A DNA stretch of 64,000 nt, from assembly GCF_019039215.1 (NCBI RefSeq), contig NZ_JAHNZZ010000001.1, positions 108,432 through 172,431 on the forward strand. Reading direction: 5' to 3'. The DNA comes from Bacillus sp. FJAT-29790 (GTDB taxonomy: Bacteria; Bacillota; Bacilli; Bacillales; Cytobacillaceae). A model generated the notes under the pieces. That model worked only from the letters and a program-made list of their open reading frames with translations. It was not told where the DNA came from and did no database searches. This document shows, in pieces, positions 35,276-64,000 of the stretch. The translations under genes and the position numbers were made by a program. Numbering within the stretch: the stretch's first letter is position 1; every line of letters starts with the position of its first letter.

Positions 35276-36688
35276 TTATAGATCAAAATAATCCTTATAT
35301 TTCTTTAACTTGTAAATGACAGACGGTTGACTGATTCCCAGGTATTCTGCCATTTCATATGTCGTTTTGCATCGTTGGAATGCTTTTGCAATAAGTTGTT
35401 TTTCAACATCTTCCAATGTTTTTTTTAGATCTAGTTTTCCTTCAAACTCCTCTTCAATCATGATCAGGTCATGAGGATCTTTCTTCTGTTCAAAATTTCC
35501 TCGTATTGAGTAGGGAATATGTGAAGGATAAATCGTCGGTGCATCTGTCGTAAGGATTAATCGTTCGATTAAATTTTCAAGTTCACGAATATTTCCAGGC
35601 CAATTATATTGCATTAATAATTCATAGGTAGACATGTGAACCTTTTTAAGTGTCTTATATTTCTCATTAACTTTCTCAACATAATGTTGAATGAGGATAG
35701 GGATATCTTCTTTACGATCGGATAATGGTGGAATATGTATAGGTACTACGTTCAAACGATAGAATAAGTCTAATCTGAATGTCCCTTTTTTTACCATATC
35801 ATCTAAATTTTGATTTGTCGCTGTAATTAATCGAAAATTAATTTGACGCTCCTTATTTCCGCCAATTCTCAACATCTTTTTTTCCTGAAGCACTTTCAGT
35901 AATTTGGCTTGTAAAGCGAGTGGCAATTCTCCAATCTCATCTAAGAATAATGTTCCACTGTCCGCTTGTTCAATCAATCCTTGTTTTCCTTTTTTGTTTG
36001 CCCCGGTAAAGGCGCCCGTTTCATAGCCGAACATTTCTGATTCAAATAGATTTTCAGGAATTGTGCTGCAATTTACCTCGATAAAGGGTTCTTTACTTCG
36101 GTCGCTCTGATTATGGATTGCCCGAGCGAGCGTACTTTTTCCTACTCCCGATGGACCTAATAATAGAATCGTAGCGTTCGTTTTCGCGACACTATTAATT
36201 GTTTTTAAAATTTGCTGCATCGTATTGCTTCTAGCCAAAATAGATTGAACGCCAAACTCCTTTTCCCTAAGGTCCTCAACCTCTGTTTGATAACCCTTTA
36301 TTTTTCGTTGTAAATGCTCATACTGCTCTTTCAGTTTCCATATCTCTGTTTGGTCTTGACTATAACTGATTACCCTAACTAATTGCCCCTCTTTATTGAA
36401 AATAGGGTATCCAGTTGACATAACAACATGTCCCGTTTTCGTATGTTGCATAATGCGAACTGGCTTTTTTTCTTTTAATACGATGGCATTAATAGAGGGG
36501 GAGAGAAGACCTTCTTTTTCTAGTTCGTATACAGACTGGCCAATATACGCGTCGGGTTTCATCCCATAAATCGACCAATGACCAGGGTGGGAACGTTGAA
36601 TAATTCCGTTTTCATCAGTAATGGTAATATTGTTGTTCGACGTCTCAATTATTTTATTCAATTCCATTTCAAATATTGAATCATTCAA
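35276..36688 (-). CDS. Sigma-54 enhancer-binding regulator 1 (PAS-AAA-HTH)
   Basis: 470 aa. PAS sensor about 10-115 (ITITDENGIIQRSHPGHWSI), AAA+ domain about 150-385 with Walker A GPSGVGKS, GAFTGA at residues 225-230 (the sigma-54 contact loop), Walker B GTLFLDEIGELP and RNLE-type WPGNIRELENL. Fis-like HTH 435-470 (TTYEMAEYLGISQPSVIYKL). RocR/BkdR-like architecture. It is divergent from the aminotransferase gene, with a palindromic UAS and a -24/-12 promoter in between. The ligand is unknown, presumably an amine or omega-amino acid. Confidence 0.92.
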   Translation of the reverse strand: MNDSIFEMELNKIIETSNNNITITDENGIIQRSHPGHWSIYGMKPDAYIGQSVYELEKEGLLSPSINAIVLKEKKPVRIMQHTKTGHVVMSTGYPIFNKEGQLVRVISYSQDQTEIWKLKEQYEHLQRKIKGYQTEVEDLREKEFGVQSILARSNTMQQILKTINSVAKTNATILLLGPSGVGKSTLARAIHNQSDRSKEPFIEVNCSTIPENLFESEMFGYETGAFTGANKKGKQGLIEQADSGTLFLDEIGELPLALQAKLLKVLQEKKMLRIGGNKERQINFRLITATNQNLDDMVKKGTFRLDLFYRLNVVPIHIPPLSDRKEDIPILIQHYVEKVNEKYKTLKKVHMSTYELLMQYNWPGNIRELENLIERLILTTDAPTIYPSHIPYSIRGNFEQKKDPHDLIMIEEEFEGKLDLKKTLEDVEKQLIAKAFQRCKTTYEMAEYLGISQPSVIYKLKKYKDYFDL

Positions 36689-36800
36689 AATTTACTCCTC
36701 CTTTAAATCATCAAAGACTATGCTAAGTTAATGTATTTTTTAGAATAATAAATAAATTCAATTTAAATTTTAATCAAATATAGCAAAATAATCAATAATT

Positions 36801-36887: not shown

Positions 36888-36903
36888 TGGCACAGATATT
36901 GCA
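36888..36903 (+). promoter_or_regulatory. Sigma-54 promoter P1
   Basis: TGGCACAGATATTGCA: TGGCAC, 5 nt, TTGCA. It matches the -24/-12 consensus perfectly with GG-N10-GC spacing. Expected start near 36914, 44 nt before the aminotransferase ATG. Confidence 0.93.
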
Positions 36904-36957
36904 TTAATCTTAGATATAAAAAATTAATAAATTTTATTAAAGGAAAGGGTGTTCATT

Positions 36958-38304
36958 ATGACGAATAGAGTAGATATCATTCAAGAATTAACCGATTTAG
37001 ATAAAAAGCATTTCTTTCATCCAACCTCACCTATTAAACAGCAACAAGAACAAGGACCAGCCTTTATTTTTACAGAAGGAAAAGGGATTTACCTTTATGA
37101 TATGGCTGGAAATAAAATGATTGATGGCATGTCTTCCTTATGGAATGTGAATGTCGGGCATGGTCGCGAAGAGATAGGAAAAGCTGCAATGGAGCAAATG
37201 TCAAAACTAGCTTATAGCTCATGCTTTGCTACATTCAGTAACGAGCCAGCTATTCGATTAGCGGCTAAGCTCGCTCAAGTTGCTCCAGGGGATTTAAGTG
37301 CAACCTTCTTTACTTCTGGCGGTTCTGAAGCAAATGATACGGCCTATAAACTGGCGCGTCATTATTGGATTTTAAAAGGGAAGCCAAATCGAAAAAAGAT
37401 CATATCCAGATCGCAATCCTACCATGGAGTTGCGATGGGATCAACAAGTGCTACTGGATTGAAGGCTTTTAGAGATTTTACTAACTCTTTGGCTCCTGAT
37501 TTTCTATATGTAGATCATTTTTCTACTAAATCTTTGCGTGAAGCGATTGAGGCAGAAGGGCCAGATACGATTGCTGCCTTTATTGCGGAACCAGTTCAAG
37601 GTGCAGGAGGGGTTCATGTAGCACCAGAAAATTATTTTCAGGAAGTACGACGAATATGTGATGAGTATGGGATTTTATTTATCACCGATGAAGTCATTAC
37701 TGGATTTGGGCGTACGGGAAAATATTTTGGCATAGAGCACTACGGTGTCGCACCTGACATGATGTGCTTTGCTAAAGGGGTCTCAAGCGGCTATGCTCAG
37801 CTTGGAGGGGTAATGATTTCGAGCCGTATATATGAAGAATTTGCGGAACTTTCCAATGGTACGCTTTTGCATGGATACACATACAGCGGCCATCCGACGG
37901 CATGTGCAGTTGCATTGAAAAACCTGGAGATTATTGAACAGGAAAACTTAATTGAAAACGCTGAGTTAATGGGGCAGGAATTGCTTAAAGGGTTCCAATG
38001 GCTTCAGGAAGAAAGAAAGATCATTGGCAAGGTAAAGGGACTTGGTTTAATGGCAGGTATTGAGTTTGTAAAGGATCAAAACACGAAATCGAGTTTTTCA
38101 GCACCTGTTTCCCCTGCAGTTGTGACAGAGGCGGCAAAACGAGGACTTATTTGTCGATCAGTTGTTTTAGATGGTCAAGATATTCTAGTATTTTCACCAC
38201 CATTAACGATAAGCAAAGAAGAGATTGCGAAAATAATTGAGATTCTAAACGATTCAATCAAGGCAATCGAAGTAAATGTTTCTGAAAGTTTCGCGGCTAA
38301 ATAA
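36958..38304 (+). CDS. Class III omega-aminotransferase 1
   Basis: 448 aa, PLP fold type I. The opening LDKKHFFHPTSP, the SGGSEANDTAYKLAR loop, DEVITGFGRTGKYFG, and the PLP lysine in CFAKGVSSGYAQLGG mark the class III omega-amino acid/diamine group, often pyruvate-dependent. It would turn a terminal amine into an aldehyde. ATG 36958 follows AGGAAAGGG; GTG 36949 is too close. It shares P1 with the next aldehyde dehydrogenase. It is clearly paralogous to the enzyme at 47875. Confidence 0.9.
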   Translation: MTNRVDIIQELTDLDKKHFFHPTSPIKQQQEQGPAFIFTEGKGIYLYDMAGNKMIDGMSSLWNVNVGHGREEIGKAAMEQMSKLAYSSCFATFSNEPAIRLAAKLAQVAPGDLSATFFTSGGSEANDTAYKLARHYWILKGKPNRKKIISRSQSYHGVAMGSTSATGLKAFRDFTNSLAPDFLYVDHFSTKSLREAIEAEGPDTIAAFIAEPVQGAGGVHVAPENYFQEVRRICDEYGILFITDEVITGFGRTGKYFGIEHYGVAPDMMCFAKGVSSGYAQLGGVMISSRIYEEFAELSNGTLLHGYTYSGHPTACAVALKNLEIIEQENLIENAELMGQELLKGFQWLQEERKIIGKVKGLGLMAGIEFVKDQNTKSSFSAPVSPAVVTEAAKRGLICRSVVLDGQDILVFSPPLTISKEEIAKIIEILNDSIKAIEVNVSESFAAK

Positions 38305-38341: not shown

Positions 38342-39763
38342 ATGAAGAAGAAATTATTTATTAATGGAAAATGGATGGAAGCAAAAAACTACACTCCTTT
38401 ACGCTCTCCCTATAGTGGGGACGTCATTGCGGAGATCCCGTTAGCGACGGTTGAAGAAGTAGACATGGCGTTGGCTGCCGCTTATGATGCTAGAAAAACA
38501 ATGGCTGCTATGCCAAGTCACCGGCGCGCAATGATTTTGGAAAATCTCGCGAACCTGTTAGAAAAAAGATTTGATGAAGCAGCTGAAATTATCGCCACTG
38601 AAGCGGCTAAACCGATTACGACAGCTCGGGGAGAAGTCGCTCGGACTATACAAACGTATAAATTTGCTGCAGAAGAGGCGAAGCGTATTAAAGGGGAAAC
38701 GATACCGATGGATGCTGCGCCGGGCGGAGAGGGCCGGGTAGCGTATACTGTGCGTGAACCACTCGGAGTGATTGGTGCGATAACGCCATTTAACTTTCCG
38801 ATGAATCTCGTTGCTCATAAAGTTGGACCAGCAATCGCATCGGGCAATACGGTTGTATTGAAACCTGCTACACAAACACCGCTATCTGCTTACTTCCTTG
38901 CTGAATTGGTTCAAGAAGCTGGGCTGCCAGATGGAGTACTTAATGTCATTACTGGAAGCGGCGCGTTAATTGGTGAGAAAATTGTTACAGATGATCGAGT
39001 TCAAAAAATTTCTTTCACAGGTAGCCCTGCAGTTGGAATTGGCATCCGAAATAAAGCTGGATTAAAGCGGGTTACACTTGAACTAGGTTCAAATGCTGCG
39101 GTTATCATTGACAATGGCGTAAATCTTGATAAATTAATTTCTCGTTGCGTGACAGGGGCGTTTGCTTTTCAAGGTCAAGTTTGTATTGCCTTACAGCGGG
39201 TTTACGTTCATGAAGAGCTCTATGAAAGTTTTGTAGATAAGTTCATTGCTGCAACGAAGCAATTGAAAATTGGTGATCCACTTGATCCATCAACAGAAGT
39301 TACAGCCTTAATTAGTCCAAACGATGTTCAACGTACGCTCGATTGGATTCAAGAAGCAGAACAAGGCGGAGCGAAAGTGGCATTAGGAGGAACGGCAGAG
39401 GGAAATATTTTACTGCCTACCATTCTATTAGAGGCAGACTCTTGTCTAAAGGTTTCTTGCCAGGAAGTGTTTGCTCCGATTGTGTTAATTAATAAAATTA
39501 AGTCAGTCGACGAAGCAATCGAGCTTGTAAATGATTCTAAATATGGCCTGCAAGCAGGCGTTTATACAGATAATGTTAACACTGCTTTCGATGCAGCAGA
39601 CAAGCTCCATGTAGGTGGAGTGATGATTAATGATATTCCGACTTATCGTGCGGATCATATGCCATATGGCGGCGTTAAAGAAAGTGGGATTGGCAGAGAA
39701 GGCGTGAAATACGCGATTGAAGAAATGACTGAGCAAAAGCTTGTTGTTTTTAATCGGAATTAA
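38342..39763 (+). CDS. Aldehyde dehydrogenase 1 (NAD(P)+)
   Basis: 473 aa. NAD-binding GVIGAITPFNFPMNLVAHKV, catalytic Glu in VTLELGSNAAVII, catalytic Cys in AFAFQGQVCIALQRVYV. The GSN variant of the ELGG motif groups it with semialdehyde-type enzymes (phosphonoacetaldehyde/lactaldehyde-like), not betaine-aldehyde types. It probably oxidises the product of aminotransferase 1. Second and last gene of the P1 operon; terminator follows. Confidence 0.9.
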   Translation: MKKKLFINGKWMEAKNYTPLRSPYSGDVIAEIPLATVEEVDMALAAAYDARKTMAAMPSHRRAMILENLANLLEKRFDEAAEIIATEAAKPITTARGEVARTIQTYKFAAEEAKRIKGETIPMDAAPGGEGRVAYTVREPLGVIGAITPFNFPMNLVAHKVGPAIASGNTVVLKPATQTPLSAYFLAELVQEAGLPDGVLNVITGSGALIGEKIVTDDRVQKISFTGSPAVGIGIRNKAGLKRVTLELGSNAAVIIDNGVNLDKLISRCVTGAFAFQGQVCIALQRVYVHEELYESFVDKFIAATKQLKIGDPLDPSTEVTALISPNDVQRTLDWIQEAEQGGAKVALGGTAEGNILLPTILLEADSCLKVSCQEVFAPIVLINKIKSVDEAIELVNDSKYGLQAGVYTDNVNTAFDAADKLHVGGVMINDIPTYRADHMPYGGVKESGIGREGVKYAIEEMTEQKLVVFNRN

Positions 39764-40032: not shown

Positions 40033-40048
40033 TGGTATGCTTTTTGCA
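40033..40048 (+). promoter_or_regulatory. Sigma-54 promoter P2
   Basis: TGGTATGCTTTTTGCA: TGGTAT, 5 nt, TTGCA, with exact GG-N10-GC spacing. Expected start near 40059, about 70 nt before the dehydrogenase gene. Confidence 0.88.
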
Positions 40049-40129: not shown

Positions 40130-41623
40130 ATGAAAATTGAGAATGTATTACTTAATGTAAATCAAATTCAAAAAATGTATATTGATGGAGACTGGCTATC
40201 TGGTGTTAGCGGTGAAACACGGGAAATTATTAATCCAGCGACTGAAGAGGTAATTGCTATTGTTGCAGAGGGGGATCCCGAAGATGTAAGGAAAGCTGTT
40301 GAAGCGGCTTATCGAGCATTTTATGAAGAGGGGTGGATGGAAAGTAAAGCAAGGGACAGGGCAGCACTTCTTTACAAACTTGCTAATCTATTAGAGGAAA
40401 GGGTGGAGGAATTCGCTTTAATTGAAACATTAAACAATGGTAAATCCATCCGCGATTCAAAATCTGATGTGGAAGATGCTGTCAACCAGCTACGCTATTA
40501 TGCAGGCTTAGCTACAAAGCCACATGGGCAGGTTTTCGATGTTCCGGATGATGTGCAATCTATGGTTATTGCCGAACCGACAGGAGTTGTTGGTCAAATT
40601 GTACCTTGGAATTACCCGCTGCTAATGGCAACTCAAAAAGTTGCCCCAGCAATTGCAGCGGGCTGCACAGTAGTTATTAAACCAGCAGAACAGACTCCGC
40701 TGACACTTATTCGGCTATTTGAACTAATACATGAAATTGGATTTCCAAAAGGGGTTATTAATTTAGTTTTAGGAGCTGGTTCTGTTGTCGGGGCAGAATT
40801 AAGCAGACACCCATTAGTTGATAAAATTGCTTTCACTGGGGGAACTGCTACAGGGAAAATAATTATGAAGACGGCAGCAGATACAATTAAAAAGGTAAGT
40901 TTAGAATTAGGTGGAAAATCCCCGCTCATTGTTTTTGAAGATGCAGATTTTGATGTAGCTGTTGATTACGCATCATTTGCTATTTTTGCTAACCAAGGAC
41001 AAGTATGCTCGGCTGGCTCTAGGCTACTGTTGCAGGAAAGTATTTACGAGAATTTTGTACCTGAATTAGTTAAAAAAGCAAAAGCGATTAACATTGGGCC
41101 GGGAATAGAAGAGATCACGAATATGGGGCCTCTAATATCGAATGTACAATTAAACCGTGTTCTAGATTACATTGAAGTGGGGATAAAAGAAGGTGCCACA
41201 TTATTATGCGGCGGAAATAAATTAAATCGAAAAGGATATTTCATTGAACCTACTATATTTACTGATACAACCCCTGAAATGAGGATTGTCCAAGAGGAAA
41301 TTTTTGGTCCAGTCCTTGTCATACAAACATTTAAAACAGAAGAGGAAGCCATTCGATTGGCGAACGGGACAAATTATGGTCTAGCAGGGGGAGTTTTTAC
41401 TACCGATTCCGCCCGAGCAATGAGAGTTATCCGTAAATTAAGAGCCGGAATCACTTGGGTTAACACCTATCACAATACATTTAATGAGGCTCCATGGGGT
41501 GGCTATAAGCAAAGCGGTATTGGAAGAGATTTAGGTACATACGGTTTCCAAGAATATTTGGAAATGAAACAAGTGAATATAAATCTCAATATTCAACCGA
41601 GTGGTTGGTTAAAAGGCTCATAA
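40130..41623 (+). CDS. Aldehyde dehydrogenase 2 (betaine-aldehyde type)
   Basis: 497 aa. GVVGQIVPWNYPLLMATQKV, catalytic Glu in VSLELGGKSPLIVFEDAD, catalytic Cys in FANQGQVCSAGSR. This is the sequence style of broad omega-amino-aldehyde or betaine-aldehyde dehydrogenases. It is the first gene after P2. No terminator is visible between it and the following genes, so it may lead a long operon. Confidence 0.9.
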   Translation: MKIENVLLNVNQIQKMYIDGDWLSGVSGETREIINPATEEVIAIVAEGDPEDVRKAVEAAYRAFYEEGWMESKARDRAALLYKLANLLEERVEEFALIETLNNGKSIRDSKSDVEDAVNQLRYYAGLATKPHGQVFDVPDDVQSMVIAEPTGVVGQIVPWNYPLLMATQKVAPAIAAGCTVVIKPAEQTPLTLIRLFELIHEIGFPKGVINLVLGAGSVVGAELSRHPLVDKIAFTGGTATGKIIMKTAADTIKKVSLELGGKSPLIVFEDADFDVAVDYASFAIFANQGQVCSAGSRLLLQESIYENFVPELVKKAKAINIGPGIEEITNMGPLISNVQLNRVLDYIEVGIKEGATLLCGGNKLNRKGYFIEPTIFTDTTPEMRIVQEEIFGPVLVIQTFKTEEEAIRLANGTNYGLAGGVFTTDSARAMRVIRKLRAGITWVNTYHNTFNEAPWGGYKQSGIGRDLGTYGFQEYLEMKQVNINLNIQPSGWLKGS

Positions 41624-41741: not shown

Positions 41742-42905
41742 ATGAATAAAGTGGTTGTTTTAGGTGCAACTGGTACGATTGGAAAAGTTATTGTCAAGGA
41801 TTTAGTGGAAAGTAATGTAGATGTGATTGCCGCGGATTTAGAGCTTCATAAATTAGAAGAATTAAAGAAATGGACGAATAATCGAATTACAATTATTCCG
41901 TTAAATATCAAGGACGAAGAGAAAACAAAAGATGTTCTACGTCAAGGAAAAGTATGTGTCAATGCGACTAATTATGTTTTTAATATTGATGTTATGAAAG
42001 CGGCGGCTGCTGTTGGAGTGAGTGTGCTGGATCTAGGCGGGCTTTTCACACGAACGAAAGAACAGTTAAAGCTTGATAACGAAATGAAAGCGGCCGATAT
42101 ATTATCGATTGTTGGAATGGGATCTGATCCTGGAACGTCCAATGTGTTTTGCCGTTATGGTGTAGAAATGTTAGATTCAGCTGAAGAAATTCATATTCGT
42201 TATGGATCAACAACGTCAGGAGCGACATTTGCCTTTGCAATCGATACGATTATCGATGAAGCCGTGAAAAATGCGCAAGCCGTAAAGGATGGAAATTTGG
42301 TTGAAATTCCCCCGCTTGCAGATGAGGAATTTACTGCCTTTCATGAAGATATAGGAGTTCAAAAAACTTACTCTATCATTCACTCAGAACTAGCAACCTT
42401 ACCAACCAGCTTTCCTAGCGTGAAAAATATAACTTATAAGGATACTTGGGATCCTGACACAATTGAAAAAATCAAAATATTAGACTCCTTAGGTCTTCTA
42501 CAAACAGAACCCGTGGAGATTGTTGGAAATAGTGTAGTGCCTAGACGCCAAACTGTTTCATTGATGCAAACAGTCCTATCTGCAAAAGAAAAACCACAAT
42601 GGGGGAAAGATGCATTATTAGTCGAGGTTAAAGGAATAAAGGATGGCAATAAAGCTTCCGTCAGATTAGAGTTAGTAACCGATTGCCAAGACGACTGGGG
42701 TGTTAGCGCTACCCAATATGCAACAGCTATCCCTGCTTCGATTGTTGCCCAAATGCTGCTCAATGGTGAGGTAACCGAAAAAGGCGTTAAACCAGCTGAA
42801 CAGTGCATTGATCCCGAGAAGTTCTTATCTTATTTAAAACAGAAAAATGTTGAGTTGTATATTACGTACAGTGAAACGAAGAAGAATAGTTTAGTTTTTG
42901 CGTAA
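41742..42905 (+). CDS. Saccharopine/lysine-6-dehydrogenase-like enzyme
   Basis: 387 aa. Rossmann start VVVLGATGTIGKVIVKDL, then VSVLDLGGLF, VGMGSDPGTSNVFCRYG and a C-terminal EKGVKPAEQCIDPEKFLSYL. Length and block order resemble L-lysine 6-dehydrogenase and carboxynorspermidine-type enzymes of the saccharopine dehydrogenase family. By analogy it could oxidatively deaminate, or reductively couple, an omega-amino group; the direction and substrate are inference. RBS ATAGGGGG. Confidence 0.78.
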   Translation: MNKVVVLGATGTIGKVIVKDLVESNVDVIAADLELHKLEELKKWTNNRITIIPLNIKDEEKTKDVLRQGKVCVNATNYVFNIDVMKAAAAVGVSVLDLGGLFTRTKEQLKLDNEMKAADILSIVGMGSDPGTSNVFCRYGVEMLDSAEEIHIRYGSTTSGATFAFAIDTIIDEAVKNAQAVKDGNLVEIPPLADEEFTAFHEDIGVQKTYSIIHSELATLPTSFPSVKNITYKDTWDPDTIEKIKILDSLGLLQTEPVEIVGNSVVPRRQTVSLMQTVLSAKEKPQWGKDALLVEVKGIKDGNKASVRLELVTDCQDDWGVSATQYATAIPASIVAQMLLNGEVTEKGVKPAEQCIDPEKFLSYLKQKNVELYITYSETKKNSLVFA

Positions 42906-43060: not shown

Positions 43061-44179
43061 ATGAAGAAAAACACCGCTTATATCTATGATGAAAGTTATT
43101 TCTGGCATGACACTGGTTCCGGAGCATTATTTATTCCATCCGGAGGATATGTTGAACCAGATAGATATGTTGAAAGCCCGGAGTCTAAGAGACGTGTAAA
43201 AAATCTTATGGATAGATGTGGATTTACAAAGGAACTTCAGGTAATCACACCTCGACCTGCCACTAGAGAAGAAATTCAATATTATCATACTGCTGAGTAT
43301 GTTGATAAAATAAAAAAATTAAGTGATGCAGGTGGTGGAGATGCAGGTGATTCAGCTACACCTTTTGGTAAAGGTTCCTACGAGATAGCGTTGTTATCCG
43401 CTGGGGGCGGAATTACGGCGGTTGATTCCGTTATGAATGAAAAGGTAAAGAATGCTTATGTAATGTCTAGACCTGCTGGGCACCATGCTGAGGCAGATTG
43501 TGGCAGGGGATTCTGCATCTTCAATAATGCCGTAATTGCAGCCGAATACGCAAAACAAAAATATGGTTTAGAAAGAATAATGATACTTGATTGGGACGTT
43601 CATCATGGAAATGGTACAGAAACTGCATTTTACAACGACCCGAGTGTGTTATTTGTATCAATTCATCAAGAATATAATTTTCCAACAGATCGGGGATTTG
43701 TGGAGCATATAGGAAAAGGCGAAGGAAAAGGATTTAATATCAATATACCGCTTCCAACCGGTACATCAAATGAAGGTTATCTGTATGCCTTTGAAAAAGT
43801 GCTTGTTCCTGTTGCAGACCAATTCAAACCGGAATTAATTATCGTTTCTGCGGGTCAGGATCCAAATATTTATGATCCTCTTTCTAGTATGATGGTAACT
43901 TCCGAAGGCTTCAGAAGAATGGCTGAAATTACAAAAGGTATTGCTGAAAGACATTGTAATGGGAAAATGATTGCACTTCATGAAGGTGGCTATAGTGCCG
44001 CGTATGTCCCGTTCTGCACCTTAGCGGTAATGGAAGCCATGAGTGAATTAGACTCAGGGGTTGAAGATCCTTTTAATGTATTTTTTACAGATATGGTTCC
44101 AATTAAACGTCTAATGGAACATCAAAAGTCTGTTGTTCACGATGTAATTGAGATACTTACACCTTATTGGGATTTTTAA
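43061..44179 (+). CDS. Class II deacetylase / acetylpolyamine-amidohydrolase-like
   Basis: 372 aa of the arginase/deacetylase fold. Tandem active-site His in PAGHHAEAD; zinc ligands in DWDVHHGNGTE and near AGQDPN; FCIFNNAVIAA and the late LHEGGYS with it. All metal ligands appear present. Bacterial members remove acyl groups from polyamines or other N-acyl amines. AcuC-like acetoin function is less likely because no acetoin genes are near. RBS AAAGGAGG. Confidence 0.85.
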   Translation: MKKNTAYIYDESYFWHDTGSGALFIPSGGYVEPDRYVESPESKRRVKNLMDRCGFTKELQVITPRPATREEIQYYHTAEYVDKIKKLSDAGGGDAGDSATPFGKGSYEIALLSAGGGITAVDSVMNEKVKNAYVMSRPAGHHAEADCGRGFCIFNNAVIAAEYAKQKYGLERIMILDWDVHHGNGTETAFYNDPSVLFVSIHQEYNFPTDRGFVEHIGKGEGKGFNINIPLPTGTSNEGYLYAFEKVLVPVADQFKPELIIVSAGQDPNIYDPLSSMMVTSEGFRRMAEITKGIAERHCNGKMIALHEGGYSAAYVPFCTLAVMEAMSELDSGVEDPFNVFFTDMVPIKRLMEHQKSVVHDVIEILTPYWDF

Positions 44180-44277
44180 TATAAATATAATTGGGAAGAA
44201 ATACGCTATTTTAATAGTATTTAATTGTCATTGGATAAAATTGGTTGATATTAAATTTAACGTGGAGGAATAACTTA

Positions 44278-45297: not shown

Positions 45298-45314
45298 TAG
45301 GAGTGGGGTTATAT

Positions 45315-47850: not shown

Positions 47851-47874
47851 ATATAACAAATGGAGGTAATATTA

Positions 47875-52035: not shown

Positions 52036-52152
52036 TTTTATTTTGACTTTTATTAGGGATAGTTACTGATATGTGAAGTTTGATAAGTAAACTAACCATT
52101 CTTTGAATAAAAAAACAATAGAAATTTCACTTAAATAAGGGGTGGAGGGAAT

Positions 52153-54739: not shown

Positions 54740-55492
54740 ATGTCCCGTTTAAATGGAAAAGTTTCAATAATCACTGGAGCGGCAGGAGGCATTGGAAAAG
54801 CAACAGCAAAAAAGTTCGCACAAGAAGGATGTAAGGTAGTCCTTACAGATGTTGATTACGAGTCAGTTCTTAAGATAAAGGATGATATTGTCTTCGAAGG
54901 TTTTGATGCAGTGGCTGTTGTTCATGACGTTTCCTCTGAGAAGGATTGGAAAAATGTAATTGATAAAACGCTTCAACAATACGATTACGTTAACGTATTG
55001 ATAAATAATGCAGGTATAGGAGATATTGAGGGAATATTAGATACCAATTTAGATCAATGGGAGAGAGTGCAGGCAATTAACTTACGCAGTGTTTTTCTAG
55101 GGATGAAATATGTGATACCTGAAATGAAGAAGGTAAAAGGTGGATCGATAATTAATATCTCCTCAATTTACGCAATGATTGGGGAAGGAAGAAGTGCTGC
55201 ATATCATGCTTCAAAGGCTGGTATCATGGGATTAACGAAAACGGCTGCCGTTGAACTAGCAAAAGACTACGTTCGAGTAAACACTATTCATCCAGGTGTA
55301 ATTGAAACTCCAATGAACAAAGAAATAATTGAAGATAAAAAAACAAAAAATGAACTTAATAATTTAACACCTTGGCCTATTTTTGGGGAACCAAAAGACA
55401 TTGCTTATGGAGCTCTTTATCTTGCATCTGATGAATCAAAGTTTGTTACTGGAAGCCAATTGGTTATTGATGGTGGATATACTGCTAAATAA
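54740..55492 (+). CDS. SDR-family dehydrogenase 1
   Basis: 250 aa. Cofactor site TGAAGGIGKATA, NNAGIGD, catalytic Ser-Tyr-Lys (NISSIYAMIGEGRSAAYHASKAGIM) and the C-terminal TGSQLVIDGGYTAK. FabG/3-hydroxyacyl-like; Asp after strand 2 (VVLTDVDY) favours NAD+. Substrate unknown. RBS GTGAGGGG. Confidence 0.88.
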   Translation: MSRLNGKVSIITGAAGGIGKATAKKFAQEGCKVVLTDVDYESVLKIKDDIVFEGFDAVAVVHDVSSEKDWKNVIDKTLQQYDYVNVLINNAGIGDIEGILDTNLDQWERVQAINLRSVFLGMKYVIPEMKKVKGGSIINISSIYAMIGEGRSAAYHASKAGIMGLTKTAAVELAKDYVRVNTIHPGVIETPMNKEIIEDKKTKNELNNLTPWPIFGEPKDIAYGALYLASDESKFVTGSQLVIDGGYTAK

Positions 55493-55620
55493 TATCGACT
55501 TAATGTCACATTACTTTAAAGACAGTATCTTAAAGCTAGATTATGATTAAATCTCCGTTAAGTTAGCGTAAAAATATATAGTCAAGGTGAATTACCTATT
55601 AAAATATGGGAGGTTTTTTT

Positions 55621-56502
55621 ATGCAAATTTCAGGTAAAGTCAAACTGCCAAAAGGAAAACGTGTAGCGGTAAACATTGGATGCGATTTTGATGCAGCATC
55701 AGTTTGGCTAGGAGCCTATAAGCTTTTTTCTCCTGCCTATATGTCAAGGGGGGAATTTGGAGCCGAAGTTGGTACACCCCGGTTGCTTAAATTATTTGAC
55801 AGGTATCATATAAAAACTTCTTGGTGTATTCCTGGCCATACAGTAGATACACATACAGATATTTGTAAGGAAATTGTTGCTAAAGGTCACGAGATTTGTC
55901 ATCATGGTTACGCACATGAGAGCGTCACGGAATTATCCTACGATGAAGAAAAAGCTGTTATGGAAAAAGGCTTAACAGCCCTACAAAGTATAGGGGTTAC
56001 TCCTAGAGGGTATCGCTCACCTGATTGGGATTTTAGTCAAAACACACTTGCGATATTGGAAGAATACGGTTTTAGATATGATAGTAGTTTAATGGGAAAT
56101 GATTTTTATCCATATCGAATTCGTCCTGTCAATGTTAATTTAGAAAAAGGAAATACTTACGGACCACCAAGTGAAATATTAGAAATACCAGTATCGTGGT
56201 ATTTAGATGACTTTCCAACACAGGAACATATAAGTGACAGAGGAGCAGAAGGCTTAAGATCCGTTCATGAAGTTTTTGACCGATGGAAATCGACATTTGA
56301 TTACGCCTGTAATATTGAAGGCGCAAGTTTTGTCTTAACACTTCATCCACAAACTAGTGGTCGAGCACATTTTATTAAAGAGTTAGAACAGTTTATACAA
56401 TATATGGAGTCAAATGGTGCGTGGTTTACCACTTTAGGAGAAATATACGATACTTTTGAAGAAACTAGCGTCGGGGCGAATAAATATTTTAATAATGTGT
56501 AA
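55621..56502 (+). CDS. Polysaccharide-deacetylase-fold hydrolase
   Basis: 293 aa from ATG 55621, 8 nt after GGGAGG. The NodB fold motifs are NIGCDFDAASVWLG (catalytic Asp pair), EICHHGYAHES (metal His) and LTLHPQTSGRA. There is no signal peptide, so it is cytoplasmic and unlikely to act on cell wall. It resembles the PuuE/HpPgdA group, which opens cyclic imides or allantoin-like rings. That would fit next to HyuAB; the assignment is inference. Confidence 0.8.
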   Translation: MQISGKVKLPKGKRVAVNIGCDFDAASVWLGAYKLFSPAYMSRGEFGAEVGTPRLLKLFDRYHIKTSWCIPGHTVDTHTDICKEIVAKGHEICHHGYAHESVTELSYDEEKAVMEKGLTALQSIGVTPRGYRSPDWDFSQNTLAILEEYGFRYDSSLMGNDFYPYRIRPVNVNLEKGNTYGPPSEILEIPVSWYLDDFPTQEHISDRGAEGLRSVHEVFDRWKSTFDYACNIEGASFVLTLHPQTSGRAHFIKELEQFIQYMESNGAWFTTLGEIYDTFEETSVGANKYFNNV

Positions 56503-56828
56503 GAAAATCATGACTTGTGAGCACATTGAATAAGAATTCCAAGGATTGTACGTAAATGTTTTACGTTTAATCGATAGGTCTCAAAATATCTGAGTATCAG
56601 GGAATCTAGGATAAACATGATGATTACGGATAACGTGGCTATCGGCAAGGGGAAGAGAATAAGTTGTGAGATAGCACTCATTTCAGCACGCCGTAGGAAA
56701 TTAATATGGGTTTCAAGGTTTCTGGAATACAGTTTCCATACTCCAGTGCCTTTTTGATGATTATTCAAACTTTTTTAGAATTTCAAATTTGTGGAGGGAT
56801 TTAAAATATTGGTTAGGAGGGTATAAAA

Positions 56829-57602
56829 GTGAGTTTTAAAGGAAAGGTAGTGGTAGTTACGGGAGCCGCGGGGGAAATTGGAAAGGAAACAGTAAAACTT
56901 TTTGCGGAAAAAGGAGCAAAGTTAGTTCTTGTTGATTTAGATGCGGAGAATCTAAAAAAAACAGCTTTTGATTTAGCCCTACAAAAAGATAAATATCTTA
57001 TTGTAAAAGCGGATGTTACAAAAGAAGAAGATGTTCAAAAGTATGTAGAAGAAAGTAAAATAAGGTTCGGGAAAATTGATGTTTTTTTTAATAATGCAGG
57101 TGTTATTGGAAAATTAGCGAATTTAACAGAGCAAGAGGCAAGTAATTTAGACTTAGTGTTAAACGTCAATGTTAAAGGAGTTTTTTACGGATTGAAACAT
57201 GTTTTAAAAGTAATGATTGATCAACAGGATGGCTCGATAATTAATATGTCTTCAGTTGCAGGTTTAGCAGGTTCTCCAGGCCTATCTCCGTATGTCGCTT
57301 CAAAGCATGCGGTTATTGGTTTAACCAAAACGGCCGCTTTAGAAGTTGCTAGCAAGGGTGTTCGTATAAATGCAGTATGTCCAGATCCAGTTAATACTAA
57401 AATGGCAAAAGAAGTAGAAAAATGGTTAGCTCCAGAGGATTCTTCAAAAAATCAAAAAGAAAAATATACTTCAACATTACCTTTGAAGAGATATGCTGAA
57501 CCAAAAGAAATAGCCGAGCTGGTGATGTTTTTGGCCTCCAATAAAGCATCCTATATCAATGGAAGCTGTTATACAATAGATGGTGGTACAACGGCGGGCT
57601 AA
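56829..57602 (+). CDS. SDR-family dehydrogenase 2
   Basis: 257 aa. TGAAGEIGKETV, NNAGVIGK, SSVAGLAGSPGLSPYVASKHAV (Ser-Tyr-Lys), NGSCYTIDGGTTAG. Asp after strand 2 (LVLVDLDA) again favours NAD+. GTG start after TTAGGAGGG. It is the last gene before the 57.66-kb terminator. Substrate unknown. Confidence 0.87.
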   Translation: MSFKGKVVVVTGAAGEIGKETVKLFAEKGAKLVLVDLDAENLKKTAFDLALQKDKYLIVKADVTKEEDVQKYVEESKIRFGKIDVFFNNAGVIGKLANLTEQEASNLDLVLNVNVKGVFYGLKHVLKVMIDQQDGSIINMSSVAGLAGSPGLSPYVASKHAVIGLTKTAALEVASKGVRINAVCPDPVNTKMAKEVEKWLAPEDSSKNQKEKYTSTLPLKRYAEPKEIAELVMFLASNKASYINGSCYTIDGGTTAG

Positions 57603-58485: not shown

Positions 58486-60219
58486 ATGAATATAAGAGAT
58501 TATTTCATCAGAGATGCGATTTGTGTTCAATGGCCTGCGACATTTCAGCAAATTTTAATGGAGGCTGTTAAATCAAACTATAATTGGTTTGTGCTATGTT
58601 CAAACCAGGAGATTGTCGGTTGCATTAGGCGTGAAGCGTTTTATGAAAAATTAAAAGAGATCGATTTGACCAAAATACATATGGTATCAATTGATAGTTT
58701 AACAACGGACGTTTCAGTTTTATATAAAGAGGATTCAATCCAACCGCTTTATCAAGATAATAAGATAATTGTTATTAAGAACAAAAATGATGAGGTTCAA
58801 GGGGTAATTGATTGGGAGTCTGACGGAAATATTCACGATCTTACGTCAAATGATGAGTGGTTTATGAAAGAGATGCAGACCATTTTTGAACAGTATTATG
58901 AAAGTGTGTTTGTCACAGATAAGACAGGAAAAGTTATTCGGGTTACTTCTAACGATGACCAACAGCATTTGGGGGAAAATGTGTTTGACCTTGAAAAGAA
59001 GAAGATCTTCTACCCGTCTATCACTGCTAAAGTTTTAAGGTCGGGCAAGCGCGAAAATGGTTTGCAGTATACAAATACAGGTGAGATTTTTGATATTGAA
59101 TCGATACCTATTAAAAATAACGAAGGAGAGGTGGTTCGGGTTGTTTCTATAACAAAGGATTCATCTGAAATTAATGATCTTAATCAGAAATTAAAGGAGT
59201 CAATTAATTTGATAGAAAATTACCAAAGGGAGGTTGCGCGTTTTCACCAAGAAAAATACGAAGAAAAGCAATTTATTTATAAAAGTAAGAAAATGGAGAA
59301 GTTGTATGAACTTATTAGGTCTGTGTCGTCTGTAGACGCCTCTGTTCTTATTTTGGGTGAAACAGGTGTAGGGAAACAAGTGATCGCAAATCAAATCCAC
59401 CTAAAAAGTAATAGAAATGATAAGCCGTTTATTACAGTCAATTGTGGGGCAATTCCAGAAAACCTGTTGGAATCTGAATTATTCGGATATGAGGAAGGGG
59501 CTTTTTCGGGGTCAAGAAAAGGTGGGAAATTGGGGATATTTGAGCTTGCAGATAAAGGAACGCTCTTTTTGGATGAAATTGGTGAGTTGCCACTATCGCT
59601 TCAGGTAAAGCTTCTACGAGCCTTACAGGAACGTGTAATTATGAGGGTTGGTGGTACAAAAGAAAAGAAAGTAGATGTAAGAATTATTACAGCTACAAAT
59701 AAAGACCTAAATCAAATGGTTAAAGATGGAGCCTTTCGTGAAGATCTGTACTATCGCATTAATGTTGTACCTATCCAAATTCCTAGCCTTAGAGATAGAA
59801 AGGAAGATATAGAAAAACTGGCTTTTCATTTCCTTGCTATATTTAATCAAAAATACCGAAAAAATATCATTCTAAATCCTGCACATTTACAAAAATTATT
59901 AGCGTATTCATGGCCCGGGAATGTAAGGGAGTTGGAAAATACGATAGAACGATTTGTAGTAATGGAAAAGTCTATTTTTTTTGATGAAAAGGAAACGGGA
60001 TCGTTGCAAATGACTCCTATTGAAGTGGACGACCAACATCTTCCCAATTTATTAGAATACATGGAAAGGGTTGAAAAAGAACTTTTGTTAAGGGTAATGA
60101 GCCGTCATCACACAACAAGGGAAATGGCGCAAAGTCTTGGTGTTAACCAATCTACTATCGTTAGAAAGTTACAAAAGCATGGCCTTGAAAGAAATATGCT
60201 AAATAAGGTAATTAGATAA
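58486..60219 (+). CDS. Sigma-54 enhancer-binding regulator 2
   Basis: 577 aa. Residues 1-120 form an N-terminal domain I do not recognise. PAS-like about 130-235 (VFVTDKTGKVIRVTSNDD), then AAA+ about 265-495: Walker A GETGVGKQ, contact loop G338-A-F-S-G-S343 in place of GAFTGA, Walker B GTLFLDEIGELP, WPGNVRELENT. HTH about 540-572 (TTREMAQSLGVNQSTIVRKL). It lies just upstream of, and parallel to, the HyuAB promoter it probably controls. Confidence 0.9.
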   Translation: MNIRDYFIRDAICVQWPATFQQILMEAVKSNYNWFVLCSNQEIVGCIRREAFYEKLKEIDLTKIHMVSIDSLTTDVSVLYKEDSIQPLYQDNKIIVIKNKNDEVQGVIDWESDGNIHDLTSNDEWFMKEMQTIFEQYYESVFVTDKTGKVIRVTSNDDQQHLGENVFDLEKKKIFYPSITAKVLRSGKRENGLQYTNTGEIFDIESIPIKNNEGEVVRVVSITKDSSEINDLNQKLKESINLIENYQREVARFHQEKYEEKQFIYKSKKMEKLYELIRSVSSVDASVLILGETGVGKQVIANQIHLKSNRNDKPFITVNCGAIPENLLESELFGYEEGAFSGSRKGGKLGIFELADKGTLFLDEIGELPLSLQVKLLRALQERVIMRVGGTKEKKVDVRIITATNKDLNQMVKDGAFREDLYYRINVVPIQIPSLRDRKEDIEKLAFHFLAIFNQKYRKNIILNPAHLQKLLAYSWPGNVRELENTIERFVVMEKSIFFDEKETGSLQMTPIEVDDQHLPNLLEYMERVEKELLLRVMSRHHTTREMAQSLGVNQSTIVRKLQKHGLERNMLNKVIR

Positions 60220-60396: not shown

Positions 60397-60412
60397 TGGC
60401 ATACTTCTTGCA
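60397..60412 (+). promoter_or_regulatory. Sigma-54 promoter P3
   Basis: TGGCATACTTCTTGCA: TGGCAT, 5 nt, TTGCA, exact GG-N10-GC spacing. Expected start near 60423. A small TGATG/CATCA dyad at 60319-60336, about 65 bp upstream, is a possible activator site. Confidence 0.92.
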
Positions 60413-60566: not shown

Positions 60567-62642
60567 ATGAACTCAATTGAACTACTAAATAATGTACGCG
60601 TTGGAATTGACACTGGTGGAACTTTTACAGACTGTGTTTTATGGAAAGATGAAAAGCCGCTAATCGTTATTAAGGTTCCTTCAACTCCGTCAAATCCAGC
60701 AGAGGCAATAATGAACGGGCTAGAGCGTCTTTGCGATATTGCGGGAATTCAAGTTCAAAACGTTAGGCTTTTAGCACACGGGACAACAGTTGCAACAAAT
60801 GCGATGCTACAGGAGCAGTGGGCAAAGGTAGGACTTATTACAACAAAAGGTTTTCGAGATGTTTTAGAGATCGGCACACAAATGCGCCCAGAGCTTTATG
60901 GGCTTCAGCAGCGAAAGTCTGCCCCAATTGTCCCTCGTAATCTTCGAATGGAAGTAGCAGAGCGGATAGATCCAGAAGGAAGGGTAGTTGAAAAGATTAA
61001 TAGGGAAGAAGTACAGGAAGTAATCAAGGAAATAATCGCAGGTGAAATAGAAAGTCTTGCAGTCTCCTTCCTATTTTCTTATGCGAACCCAGAACATGAA
61101 GCGGCTATTCGTGAGGCGGCAGCAGAACTTGCTCCTGATCTTTACCTATGTATTTCCTCTGAAGTAAGTCCTGAGTTTCGCGAGTATCCGCGTACATCCA
61201 CAACTGTAATTAACGCAGCATTGGCACCAGTTGTGCGCCGGTATATTCGAAATCTCCGTCAAGAATTAGACGTAAAGGGAATAGGAAATAAATTAAATAT
61301 CATGCAGTCAAATGGTGGAATTGTTTCCGGGGAGGAGGCAGAAATGTCCTCCCATAACCTTATCCTAAGTGGGCCGGCTGCTGGGATGGTTGCTGCAGCG
61401 GAAATTGCTCAGAAGTCTAATTTTCCGAATGCCCTGACTTTCGATATGGGGGGGACGAGTTCTGATATTGGAATCATTATCGATGGTAAACCTCAGGTCG
61501 TTCAAGGGACTACAGTGAACAATACGTATCCGTTACAAGTCCCAACTGTTGATATTCATACGATTGGAGCGGGTGGAGGTAGTATTGGCTGGAAAGATCA
61601 GGGCGGTGCATTAAAGGTTGGTCCTAAGAGTGCGGGTGCTGTTCCCGGGCCAGCTTGTTATGGGCTAGGTGGTGTTGATCCTACTGTGACAGACGCGAAT
61701 CTTTTTCTTGGTCGCCTAGATCCGGAAAACTATCTCGGCGGTGAATTTACGGTTTATCCCGACCTCTCATTTGAATCATTAAAAAAGCTTGCTAATGAGC
61801 TAGATCTTGATGTGGAACGAGTAGCTTCCGGAATTTTAGAAGTGGCTAATGCGAATATGGCAGGGGCCCTTCGTGTAGTATCTAGCCGTCGCGGGTACGA
61901 TCCAAGGGACTTTGCGCTGATAGCCTATGGCGGTGCCGGTCCACTGCATGCAACAGCACTCGCTCGAGAGCTTGGAATTAAACGGGTGATTATCCCTGCC
62001 TCACCAGGTGTTCTATGCGCTAAAGGCCTGCTACTAAGCGATGTCCGCCATGATTTTACACATACTGAAGTTGTATCAATAGAGTATGCTGATTTAGTAA
62101 AACTAGAAGAAAGTTTCATAGAACTTGAAAATCGCGGGATAAATCGCCTTGATAAAGAAGGAGTTCCATCTAACAAGATACGTTTAAAACGGACGCTAGA
62201 TATTCGTTACAAAGGGCAGGAGTACTATTTAAACATTCCGATCGACGGAAGGATCACTCCTCAACAACTTAAAGAAGTGACCGATTTGTTTCACGAAGTT
62301 CATAGAAGTACTTACGGCCATGCCGCAACAAATGAACCTGTTGAAATTGTAAATTTACGATTATCTGCGATTGGAGAAATTGACCGGTTAGAAAATGAGC
62401 AGTGTTTTGAAGCGATGGATCTGAATTCAATCATGCCTACGAACTATCGGTCAGTGTTTTTTAATGGATATGGATGGATGGACACACCTATTTATCGCCG
62501 TGAAGATTTCAATTTAAATACTAGGATTGAAGGACCAGCAATCATCGTCCAAATGGATACGACCGTCATTATAGAGCCGAAACAAAACGTAACAACTGAT
62601 GAACAAGGAAATCTAATTGTATTATTGGAGGGGATCGAATGA
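60567..62642 (+). CDS. hyuA: HyuA: ATP-dependent hydantoinase/lactamase alpha subunit
   Basis: 691 aa, full length. The ATP-binding actin-like fold starts RVGIDTGGTFTDCVLW, then LLAHGTTVATNAML, SGPAAGMVAAAEIA, FDMGGTSSDIGII and the conserved GAGGGSIGW. Family members (N-methylhydantoinase A, 5-oxoprolinase, caprolactamase and acetone carboxylase subunits) use ATP to open amide rings or carboxylate ketones. The reaction cannot be read from sequence; nearby omega-aminotransferases and GabD favour a lactam or cyclic imide. RBS GACGAGGTG. It overlaps hyuB by 4 nt. Confidence 0.9.
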   Translation: MNSIELLNNVRVGIDTGGTFTDCVLWKDEKPLIVIKVPSTPSNPAEAIMNGLERLCDIAGIQVQNVRLLAHGTTVATNAMLQEQWAKVGLITTKGFRDVLEIGTQMRPELYGLQQRKSAPIVPRNLRMEVAERIDPEGRVVEKINREEVQEVIKEIIAGEIESLAVSFLFSYANPEHEAAIREAAAELAPDLYLCISSEVSPEFREYPRTSTTVINAALAPVVRRYIRNLRQELDVKGIGNKLNIMQSNGGIVSGEEAEMSSHNLILSGPAAGMVAAAEIAQKSNFPNALTFDMGGTSSDIGIIIDGKPQVVQGTTVNNTYPLQVPTVDIHTIGAGGGSIGWKDQGGALKVGPKSAGAVPGPACYGLGGVDPTVTDANLFLGRLDPENYLGGEFTVYPDLSFESLKKLANELDLDVERVASGILEVANANMAGALRVVSSRRGYDPRDFALIAYGGAGPLHATALARELGIKRVIIPASPGVLCAKGLLLSDVRHDFTHTEVVSIEYADLVKLEESFIELENRGINRLDKEGVPSNKIRLKRTLDIRYKGQEYYLNIPIDGRITPQQLKEVTDLFHEVHRSTYGHAATNEPVEIVNLRLSAIGEIDRLENEQCFEAMDLNSIMPTNYRSVFFNGYGWMDTPIYRREDFNLNTRIEGPAIIVQMDTTVIIEPKQNVTTDEQGNLIVLLEGIE

Positions 62643-64000
62643 TTAATCAAATTCAGACTTCAATAAATAAGTCGCGGTCAGATCAAGAAATTGACGCAAT
62701 TACACTTGAGGTTGTTTATAGCAGTTTGCTTTCTGCTGCAGATGAGATGAGTGGTGTACTTGGTCGAAGTGCGTATTCGCCAATCATTCGTGAGATGATT
62801 GATTATTCATGTGGGATTTTTGATGCGACAGGGAATCTAATTGCACAGGCAGAAAACATTCCAGCCCACCTTGGTTCGATGGGTACGGCGCTGCGTGATC
62901 TTTTCAATGATTTTCCTTTAGATTCATTTAAACCTGGGGATGCATACTTAGTGAATGATCCTTACCGTGGCGGGCAGCACACACCTGACCTGCATGTATT
63001 TACACCAGCTTTCTATGAGGGGGAACTTATTGGAATATGTGGAACGATTGCACACCATGCGGATATGGGTGGAAAAAACCCTGGTACTGAAGGGTTTGAT
63101 AACCGGTCGATTTTTGAGGAGGGACTTCGGATCCCACCTGTAAGGCTTGCCACAGCAGATGGAATAAATGAGGCAGTCACAACGATCATTGCTGGAAATG
63201 TTCGCGAGCCTAAAGCCACAATGGGGGACCTGCGTGCCCAAATTGCTGCTTGTCGTTTTGGCGAAGGACGTTTGAAGGAACTGGCGAAACGATATGGAAT
63301 TAGCATTTTAACGGAAGTAATGAAAAAATCCATGGATTACTCCGAATTACGCATGAGGACAGAGTTAGCTAGAATGATGGATGCGGAGACGACTGTTAGC
63401 GGATGGCTTGATGATGATGGTATTGGGGGAGCCCCCGTAGAAATCCGAGTGAGGGTTGTTAAGAGGGGGAAAGAAATTGAAATTGACTTTACAGGTACGA
63501 GTGAGCAAATGGCAGGAGGGATGAATGTTCCGCCAGCGGCAGCCACTTCAGCGGTTCTATATGCAATAAAGTGTGTAGTTGATCCCGGAACACCGCAAAA
63601 TCAAGGGTGTTTTCGCCCAATAAAAGTAGTGCTACCTGAAGGAAGTCTTGTTAATCCTCACTTTCCGGCAGCTGTAAGTTTACGTCATCTCGCTGTTCAG
63701 CGAATAGCTGATACGATCTTAAGAGGACTTTCTGAGTTATATCCGAACCGAACGGCTGCAGGAACATTTGTCGGCTTCTCAAGTTTAGCTATTGACAGTT
63801 GGCATCCTGTGAATAAAACCCCAAGGGTCATTCAAGATGATCTTGGTGGAGGAATGGGTGCTCACGCTAACGGTGATGGCATTGACGCAGTTGATACCCA
63901 CTGTGGAAATGTTGCTATTTTGCCTGCTGAGGTATGTGAGCTATCCTATCAAATTCGTGTTCGCTCAACGGAACTAATCCCTGATTCAGGTGGACCAGGA
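62639..64000 (+). CDS. hyuB: HyuB: hydantoinase/lactamase beta subunit (partial)
   Basis: The ATG at 62639 overlaps the hyuA stop (ATGA), with ribosome site TTGGAGGGG. The frame is open through base 64000, giving 454 residues of an expected 550-600; the 3' end is outside the window. Conserved blocks: EVVYSSLLSAADEMSGVL, YLVNDPYRGGQHTPDLHVFT, GTIAHHADMGG and DDLGGGMGAHANGDGIDAVD. The His-rich block probably binds metal. HyuB carries the hydrolytic site and HyuA activates the amide with ATP. Confidence 0.9.
   Translation, partial: MINQIQTSINKSRSDQEIDAITLEVVYSSLLSAADEMSGVLGRSAYSPIIREMIDYSCGIFDATGNLIAQAENIPAHLGSMGTALRDLFNDFPLDSFKPGDAYLVNDPYRGGQHTPDLHVFTPAFYEGELIGICGTIAHHADMGGKNPGTEGFDNRSIFEEGLRIPPVRLATADGINEAVTTIIAGNVREPKATMGDLRAQIAACRFGEGRLKELAKRYGISILTEVMKKSMDYSELRMRTELARMMDAETTVSGWLDDDGIGGAPVEIRVRVVKRGKEIEIDFTGTSEQMAGGMNVPPAAATSAVLYAIKCVVDPGTPQNQGCFRPIKVVLPEGSLVNPHFPAAVSLRHLAVQRIADTILRGLSELYPNRTAAGTFVGFSSLAIDSWHPVNKTPRVIQDDLGGGMGAHANGDGIDAVDTHCGNVAILPAEVCELSYQIRVRSTELIPDSGGPG

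Follow-up and report, generated by a model that had tools for sequence, protein, structure and literature searches.

The window, i.e. the whole stretch of DNA analysed here, comprises 64,000 nucleotides of Bacillus sp. FJAT-29790 (G000, contig C1, positions 108432-172431; host genome of 4.55 Mb in 9 contigs). Between position 35276 and the end of the window at 64000, it harbours a gene pair for a putative ATP-dependent lactamase or hydantoinase (HyuAB), a gene for a member of the saccharopine dehydrogenase family (SDH-like), and genes for amide hydrolases, aminotransferases, aldehyde dehydrogenases (ALDH), transporters and regulators. Gene content was established from the listing of open reading frames (ORFs) and from family scans (Pfam, NCBIfam), and comparison loci were mostly taken from genomes of relatives (given as G numbers), apart from some named contigs. 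Judged by its genes and promoter-like sites, the stretch is a genuine sigma-54-linked set of degradation genes. It most likely serves to open small amine-derived ring amides and to cleave the product with an unusual relative of the polyamine-biosynthesis enzyme carboxyspermidine dehydrogenase (CASDH) that apparently runs in reverse; the exact substrate molecule is a guess.

The first gene lies on the minus strand and encodes an enhancer-binding protein with PAS, sigma-54 interaction and helix-turn-helix domains (EBP1, 35276..36688; PF00158 234 bits, PF13426 PAS 28.7 bits), for which an ortholog (87%) occupies the same place in G138, a genome from another genus of the same family. All other features of the region are on the plus strand. 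Divergent from EBP1, a class III omega-aminotransferase (AT1, 36949..38304; best solved relative the amine transaminase 6fyq, 517 bits) and an aldehyde dehydrogenase (ALDH1, 38342..39763) are preceded by a perfect -24/-12 promoter sequence (TGGCACN5TTGCW, 36888..36903). Relatives of ALDH1 (59%) were found directly behind gabT in G867 and G939. A weak -24/-12 site (40033..40048) stands before ALDH2, which is of the betaine/amino-aldehyde dehydrogenase type (40130..41623; TIGR01804 594 bits, below the cut-off of 668). Then follow the SDH-like gene (41742..42905), predicted to code for a CASDH-like, NAD-dependent amine dehydrogenase, a gene for an amide hydrolase of the histone deacetylase (HDAC) superfamily, HDAH type (43061..44179; PF00850 313 bits), and a CUT2-type ABC transporter consisting of a substrate-binding lipoprotein (44245..45297; PF13407 124 bits), an ATPase (45303..46850; best families sugar-type, below their cut-offs) and a permease (46864..47850). 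Further along, a second AAA+ sigma-54 activator, this one without PAS match (EBP2, 58486..60219), and a -24/-12 site (60397..60412) precede hyuA (60567..62642) and hyuB (62639..64363, cut by the end of the window), predicted to code for the ATP-binding and the metal-binding hydrolytic subunit, respectively. A gene for an APC permease follows hyuB outside the window (64597-65964).

In G138 the corresponding order is EBP1, AT1, ALDH1, ALDH2, SDH-like, HDAC, substrate-binding protein, ABC ATPase, ABC permease, EBP2, HyuA, HyuB and APC, with core genes 80-91% identical to those of the window and no other ORF of at least 130 amino acids in between. In the window, additional genes (47860-57602) are inserted between the ABC permease, the last gene of the core block, and EBP2. 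They code for a class III aminotransferase (AT2, 47860..49257), an Ntn amide hydrolase of the C45/AAT family (C45, 49510..50592; NF040521 255 bits, above the cut-off of 85), a succinate-semialdehyde-dehydrogenase (SSADH)-like protein (ALDH3, 50611..52035), a GNAT-type protein (52153..52824), an MFS transporter (53092..54474), the oxidoreductase SDR1 (54740..55492), a NodB-fold amide hydrolase candidate (55606..56502; best solved match 3qbu, 182 bits) and the oxidoreductase SDR2 (56829..57602). AT2, C45, ALDH3 and GNAT (87, 75, 79 and 63%) form a separate module in G148, where two EBPs and a perfect -24/-12 site precede them, while relatives of NodB and SDR1 (54-55% for SDR1) were detected near HyuAB in two further arrangements (G129, G043). 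By its gene content the locus is thus a composite and not one unit.

The initial annotation had described 35276-64000 as a single regulon. The whole span as one unit was rejected, since the G138 version is devoid of 47860-57602 and the first four genes of this block form the separate G148 module. The combination of deacylation, ring opening and amine oxidation that had been proposed holds insofar as HyuAB stays with deacylase, dehydrogenase and ALDH genes in other genomes, but not for the entire span. Family scans recovered the genes listed there: two EBPs, two class III aminotransferases, three ALDHs, the hydrolase candidates of the Hist_deacetyl, C45 Ntn and NodB types (at 43061, 49510 and 55606), the HyuAB pair (60567, 62639) and the transporters, i.e. 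the CUT2-type ABC set and the MFS protein. The GabD-type ALDH corresponds to the SSADH/GabD-like gene at 50611, with a TIGR01780 score (616.6 bits) slightly below the cut-off of 646.35.

Fifteen SDH-like loci with at least 59% identity, the window counted, were compared, the one of G136 being partial and that of G135 a fragment. They came from overlapping sources (1 of 32 HDAC loci; 2 of 397, 9 of 193, 2 of 398 and 3 of 197 genomes; and 1 of 29). HyuAB is present in 7 of the 15 (window, G138, G129 copy 1, G128, G105, Sporosarcina sp. HYO08 and the decaying G136). HyuA with at least 70% identity was found in 5 of 193 genomes of the family, each time (5/5) with SDH-like in the same locus; no SDH-like was detected near 8 examined HyuA relatives of at most 46% identity, of which many exist. 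The smallest unit, in G128 and G105, consists of EBP2 followed by HyuA, HyuB, APC and SDH-like. In Sporosarcina sp. HYO08 a single run comprises an ALDH (50% to ALDH3), ALDH2 (54%), SDH-like (74%), HyuA (70%), HyuB (79%), an SSS protein, HDAC (75%) and APC (77%). In four loci (G127, G123, G501, G986) SDH-like is joined by an ALDH and by an MFS protein conserved among them, with ALDH2 in addition in G501. Two others (G867, G939) contain PotA (391 and 387 bits, cut-off 356) and GabT (601 and 614 bits, cut-off 507), with a flavin amine oxidase and an Amidohydro_3 protein beside SDH-like. Copy 2 of G129 is accompanied by an SBP_bac_3-type ABC set, and the remaining locus is the G135 fragment. Relatives of ALDH2 (at least 51%) occur in 7 of the 15 loci, again with the window counted. 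Decayed EBP2-HyuA-SDH-like copies were observed in G136 and G135 (L162, L168); between the decayed pieces of G136 lies a gene for a protein with a Cas12f1-like TNB match (24.8 bits, cut-off 26.3), perhaps a TnpB-type transposon gene.

SDH-like had initially been annotated as a lysine-6-dehydrogenase-like enzyme. The gene at 41742 does belong to the saccharopine dehydrogenase family, but it is nearer to CASDH: CASDH structures were the top matches of SDH-like and share its predicted fold, and 3abi, an L-lysine 6-dehydrogenase, was not the closest by sequence and structure. For these reasons, the lysine-6-dehydrogenase label for 41742-42905 was rejected in favour of a CASDH-like enzyme. The residues Ser144, Glu188, His228 and Glu230 of CASDH are kept. 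The His228-Glu229-Glu230 run is incomplete, as Glu229 is replaced by Ser in 11 of 11 aligned orthologs; lysine-6-dehydrogenase is devoid of this run (PMC10413350). The NADPH site was scored at Ser34 and Thr36 (Lys39 and Arg45 were left unscored), and neither is conserved: Ser34, located in CASDH at the NADP ribose and phosphate water, is Asp, and Thr36 is Glu, Asp or Asn in 11 of 11 aligned orthologs. An Asp at the position of Ser34 is also present in 3abi. In the protein of the window, Asp32 is predicted to contact the adenosine ribose, and the pocket near Ser215, which replaces Glu229, is predicted to be uncharged. SDH-like is predicted from these residues to be an NAD-type enzyme, and its closeness to CASDH points to a secondary-amine, polyamine-like substrate.

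In HyuA, Asp15, Asp293 and GAVPGP match the ATP-site residues Asp11, Asp295 and GxxPGP of CapA, and in HyuB, Asp55, His114, Asp117 and His139 align with the metal ligands Asp41, His99, Asp102 and His124 of CapB, as given in PMC8453981. The conserved residues suggest that HyuAB probably works like an ATP-dependent lactamase, in agreement with the lactamase/hydantoinase type assigned initially. An assignment to caprolactam is not supported: both NCBIfam caprolactamase equivalog cut-offs (1000 bits each) were missed by far (CapA 614.3 bits, full-length CapB 256.8 bits), and the vicinal Cys410-Cys411 pair of the CapB pocket is not conserved, HyuB having Cys422-Gly423 there. By these two tests HyuAB is not a caprolactamase, and this identity was rejected. 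Among solved structures, N-methylhydantoinase is the best relative of both subunits (530 bits for HyuA, 294 bits for HyuB). The host genome has another HyuAB (L138, G000:C1:1225000-1243999), which adjoins an AT1-like aminotransferase (62%), and AT1-like genes close to HyuAB were also seen in G028, G031 and G042. In G043 (L050) a single run of C45, NodB, Oxidored_FMN (old-yellow-enzyme family), SSS, two SDRs and HyuBA represents perhaps an imide or unsaturated-lactam pathway.

At the level of genes and sites, the presence of rpoN in the host genome, of EBPs and of -24/-12 sites indicates a sigma-54 regulon, so that the signs of sigma-54 control noted initially, like the omega-amine enzymes, are supported. 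Among the three promoters described as consensus, the one at 36888 is perfect, whereas those at 60397 (TGGCAT) and 40033 deviate by one and two mismatches, respectively. The TGGCAT variant is also among the promoters listed for B. thuringiensis in PMC4428206, which describes sigma-54 pathways for GABA, lysine and sarcosine. Enrichment of -24/-12 sites by number alone is weak to moderate. Sites with at most one mismatch amount to 4 in the window vs 1.88 expected (reached in 11 of 100 shuffles), TGGCN7TTGC to 5 vs 1.83 (4 of 100), and sites with at most two mismatches and fixed GG/GC to 13 vs a mean of 5.2 in 30 single-base shuffles. The count was rejected as proof because the shuffles match it at these rates, and the case for promoters is made by the position and conservation of the sites. 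A site with 0-1 mismatch precedes hyuA in all six loci of the window's family that combine HyuA with SDH-like (window, G138, G129, G128, G105 and decayed G136). Perfect sites were found before both AT1 and ALDH2 in G138 (L132 for AT1), and, in G501, G127 and copy 2 of G129, upstream of SDH-like or of the run of genes to which it belongs; the perfect site of G123 sits within an ORF call whose start is too early. The scanned part of the G867 locus (L169) gave no supporting site. Relatives of EBP2 (46-80%) were identified in 10 of the 14 other SDH-like loci, with a PucR-type regulator instead in G867, G939 and G986, and no EBP was found in the examined Sporosarcina stretch.

The best solved match of the HDAC-type protein is 5li3 (356 bits), with HDAH next. 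An HDAC10-like polyamine deacetylase was considered unsupported, as the gatekeeper position is Leu, judged by the motif and without an alignment to HDAC10. Among the SDH-like loci, HDAC was found in three and the orthologous Amidohydro_3 in four (G129 twice, G867, G939), never both in one locus; they replace each other beside SDH-like. Over the 15 loci, ALDH2 (at least 51%) is associated with a deacylase (6/1/1/7, Fisher test, p = 0.009), a weak result as the loci are related; the exceptions are G501 (ALDH2 with only a 28% Amidohydro_3 at about 7 kb) and G939 (Amidohydro_3 with an ALDH2 relative of only 42%). In 11 of 32 HDAC loci (L005-L036), an HDAC relative was seen with an AT2-like aminotransferase (54-62%) and an ALDH2-like dehydrogenase (46-50%). 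The second C45 locus of the host (L049, G000:C1:2060000-2079999) contains PotA (411 bits, cut-off 355.6), MMSDH (600 bits, cut-off 448.5), a PotD-like binding protein, an FAD oxidoreductase, a relative of the GNAT-type protein that also has a CN-hydrolase domain, and near-consensus -24/-12 sites, and is probably a polyamine-related operon. The view of C45 as a pure polyamine gene holds only in part, since the G031 copy lies with three M20 peptidase-family proteins, an amidase and an SBP_bac_5 protein; in other contexts C45 was found with GNAT near a contig end (G040) and with NodB and HyuAB (G043).

Downstream of the APC permease gene, an SSS symporter, a ureohydrolase and a third EBP (EBP3) are encoded on the minus strand (66087-70074; L003:6519-10506), with a perfect -24/-12 site. 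The closest solved match of the ureohydrolase is the guanidinobutyrase 3nio (268 bits). Related pairs of ureohydrolase and EBP were also seen close to the SDH-like locus in G138, where an SSS protein accompanies them, and in G501, where a BCCT protein does.

Altogether, the core (EBP1 to ABC permease, EBP2, HyuAB and APC) is proposed to form a catabolic unit under sigma-54 control, whose substrate would be a lactam or amide of the omega-amine or polyamine type that is N-substituted and often N-acylated, a reading to which we give slightly less than even weight. What was read from the sequences is the set of genes, their conservation as a unit, the catalytic residues and the promoter-like sites; we infer expression, reaction direction, order of the steps and substrate class. 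The substrate would be taken up by the ABC and APC transporters, and its N-acyl group removed by the HDAC-type enzyme. HyuAB would then open the lactam with ATP to an amino acid bearing a secondary amine, the C-N bond of which SDH-like would cleave oxidatively with NAD+, giving an amine and an aldehyde. ALDH2, AT1 and ALDH1 may convert the pieces to dicarboxylic acids, and block 47860-57602 would add further candidate amide-hydrolysing modules. That HyuAB is paired with an enzyme of CASDH type is most readily accounted for if an N-substituted lactam is first opened and the secondary amine then cleaved oxidatively, and the PotA, GabT and amine oxidase neighbours of SDH-like, together with PotA in the second C45 locus, point to polyamine-like amines.

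Several observations weigh against this proposal. HyuAB accompanies SDH-like in just 7 of 15 loci, one of them decayed, and the four loci with SDH-like, ALDH and MFS indicate that the dehydrogenase does not need the lactamase. No examined locus pairs HyuAB with PotA, so that the lactam and polyamine links stem from different genomes. Many loci come from one family and the counts are not independent. SDH-like is only 20-24% identical to the solved CASDH chains and reaches 62.5 bits vs an NCBIfam CASDH-family cut-off of 800. The ABC set is of the sugar-transport type, and the site scan of the Sporosarcina locus gave no -24/-12 site before hyuA. The best solved match of HDAC, 5li3, is presumably PA3774. 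According to PMC4784309, PA3774 does not deacetylate acetylpolyamines.

Other explanations were weighed against the same genes. The simple lactam route of the initial annotation, in which HyuAB would turn 2-pyrrolidinone or valerolactam into GABA or 5-aminovalerate, an aminotransferase or SDH-like would deaminate the primary amine, and an ALDH would yield the diacid, is rather unlikely, with simple 2-pyrrolidinone as a possible substrate. It has a precedent in the CapAB-aminotransferase-dehydrogenase cluster of P. jessenii (PMC6061476), SSADH-like ALDH3 and ALDH1 fit it, and the second HyuAB of the host adjoins an AT1-like gene. This route needs no CASDH-type enzyme, yet the partner that stays constant within this HyuA clade is SDH-like and not an aminotransferase; the His-Glu-Glu run missing from lysine-6-dehydrogenase and the failed caprolactamase tests also argue against it. 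Several independent nitrogen-scavenging cassettes lying side by side, each with its own regulator, would explain why AT1-ALDH1 occurs without other core genes in 15 kb stretches of G061 and G058, AT2-C45-ALDH3-GNAT alone in G148, and SSS-ureohydrolase-EBP3 as a separate cassette, with three EBPs in all. We consider this unlikely, as ALDH2, SDH-like, HDAC, HyuAB and APC are found together, though reordered, in Sporosarcina sp. HYO08, and SDH-like stands beside HyuA in all five family genomes having this HyuA.

A hydantoin or cyclic-imide route, with HyuAB as N-methylhydantoinase-like enzyme and the NodB-fold protein as imidase, would agree with the best solved relative of HyuAB and with the location of NodB next to a CN-hydrolase (PF00795 77.7 bits) in G129 and near HyuAB in G043. 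The family matches of the locus included no recognisable carbamoylase, NodB was not found in the G138, G128, G105 and Sporosarcina stretches, and three ALDHs and two omega-aminotransferases would be left without clear place. We regard this route as very unlikely.

Within the proposed opening and cleavage of an N-substituted lactam, a specific substrate may be considered. N-(3-acetamidopropyl)pyrrolidin-2-one and its relatives are end products of acetylspermidine oxidation. The core might degrade these compounds via isoputreanine, with SDH-like as first enzyme for isoputreanine cleavage, a version that we regard as doubtful. The HDAC-type enzyme would take acetate off the neutral lactam, HyuAB would open N-(3-aminopropyl)pyrrolidin-2-one to isoputreanine, and SDH-like with NAD+ would split the latter into 1,3-diaminopropane and succinic semialdehyde. 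Isoputreanine corresponds to carboxynorspermidine minus the alpha-amino group, which would agree with the loss of Glu229, one of the two residues that are proposed to bind aspartate semialdehyde. The proposal gives each core enzyme a role. Against it stand the separate genomic contexts of lactam and polyamine genes and the inactivity of PA3774-type HDACs on acetylpolyamines (PMC4784309). A 2023 review (PMC10648994) treats the cleavage of isoputreanine by oxidation at its secondary amine as a supposed, uncharacterised reaction. Among the literature matches listed, work on isoputreanine and acetamidopropyl-pyrrolidinone was mostly metabolomics with no degrader in any title, no title dealt with bacterial isoputreanine degradation, and no match joined isoputreanine with lactam or agropinic acid with hydantoinase. 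If true, the proposal would provide bacteria with a route for lactams derived from polyamines or amines, would add an NAD-linked enzyme breaking what CASDH makes, and would put the supposed cleavage of isoputreanine to the test. It would also offer ATP-dependent lactamase candidates outside the caprolactamase group, with a possible use in opening stable lactams.

Compared with known systems, SDH-like shares with CASDH the fold, the Ser-Glu-His relay and Glu188, but differs by Ser for Glu229 and the NAD-type Asp for Ser34 (11/11 aligned orthologs) and by its location beside degradation genes instead of biosynthesis genes. Agropinic acid is reportedly a precedent, with the hydantoinase-like agaFG. 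Breakdown of N-methylpyrrolidone proceeds by ATP-dependent opening of the N-substituted lactam, oxidation of the secondary amine and an SSADH step, a logic like that proposed here. The nmpABCF genes comprise N-methylhydantoin amidohydrolase, an amino-acid oxidase (NmpC) and SSADH, as listed in PMC6987047, whereas in the present locus an NAD-type saccharopine-fold dehydrogenase would replace the oxidase. The caprolactam cluster of P. jessenii (CapAB, omega-aminotransferase and 6-oxohexanoate dehydrogenase; PMC6061476 and PMC8453981) resembles the locus by a HyuAB-type lactamase with the same metal and ATP residues, a class III aminotransferase and an ALDH. In contrast, signs of sigma-54 control, a CASDH-like dehydrogenase, an HDAC-type deacylase and more transporters are found here, and HyuAB falls below the CapA and CapB cut-offs and does not keep the vicinal Cys pair. 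The sigma-54 GABA cluster of B. thuringiensis (GabR, gabT) shares a PAS-containing EBP and a TGGCAT-N5-TTGCA promoter driving an aminotransferase (PMC4428206), while deacylase, lactamase and CASDH-like genes are additional in the present locus.

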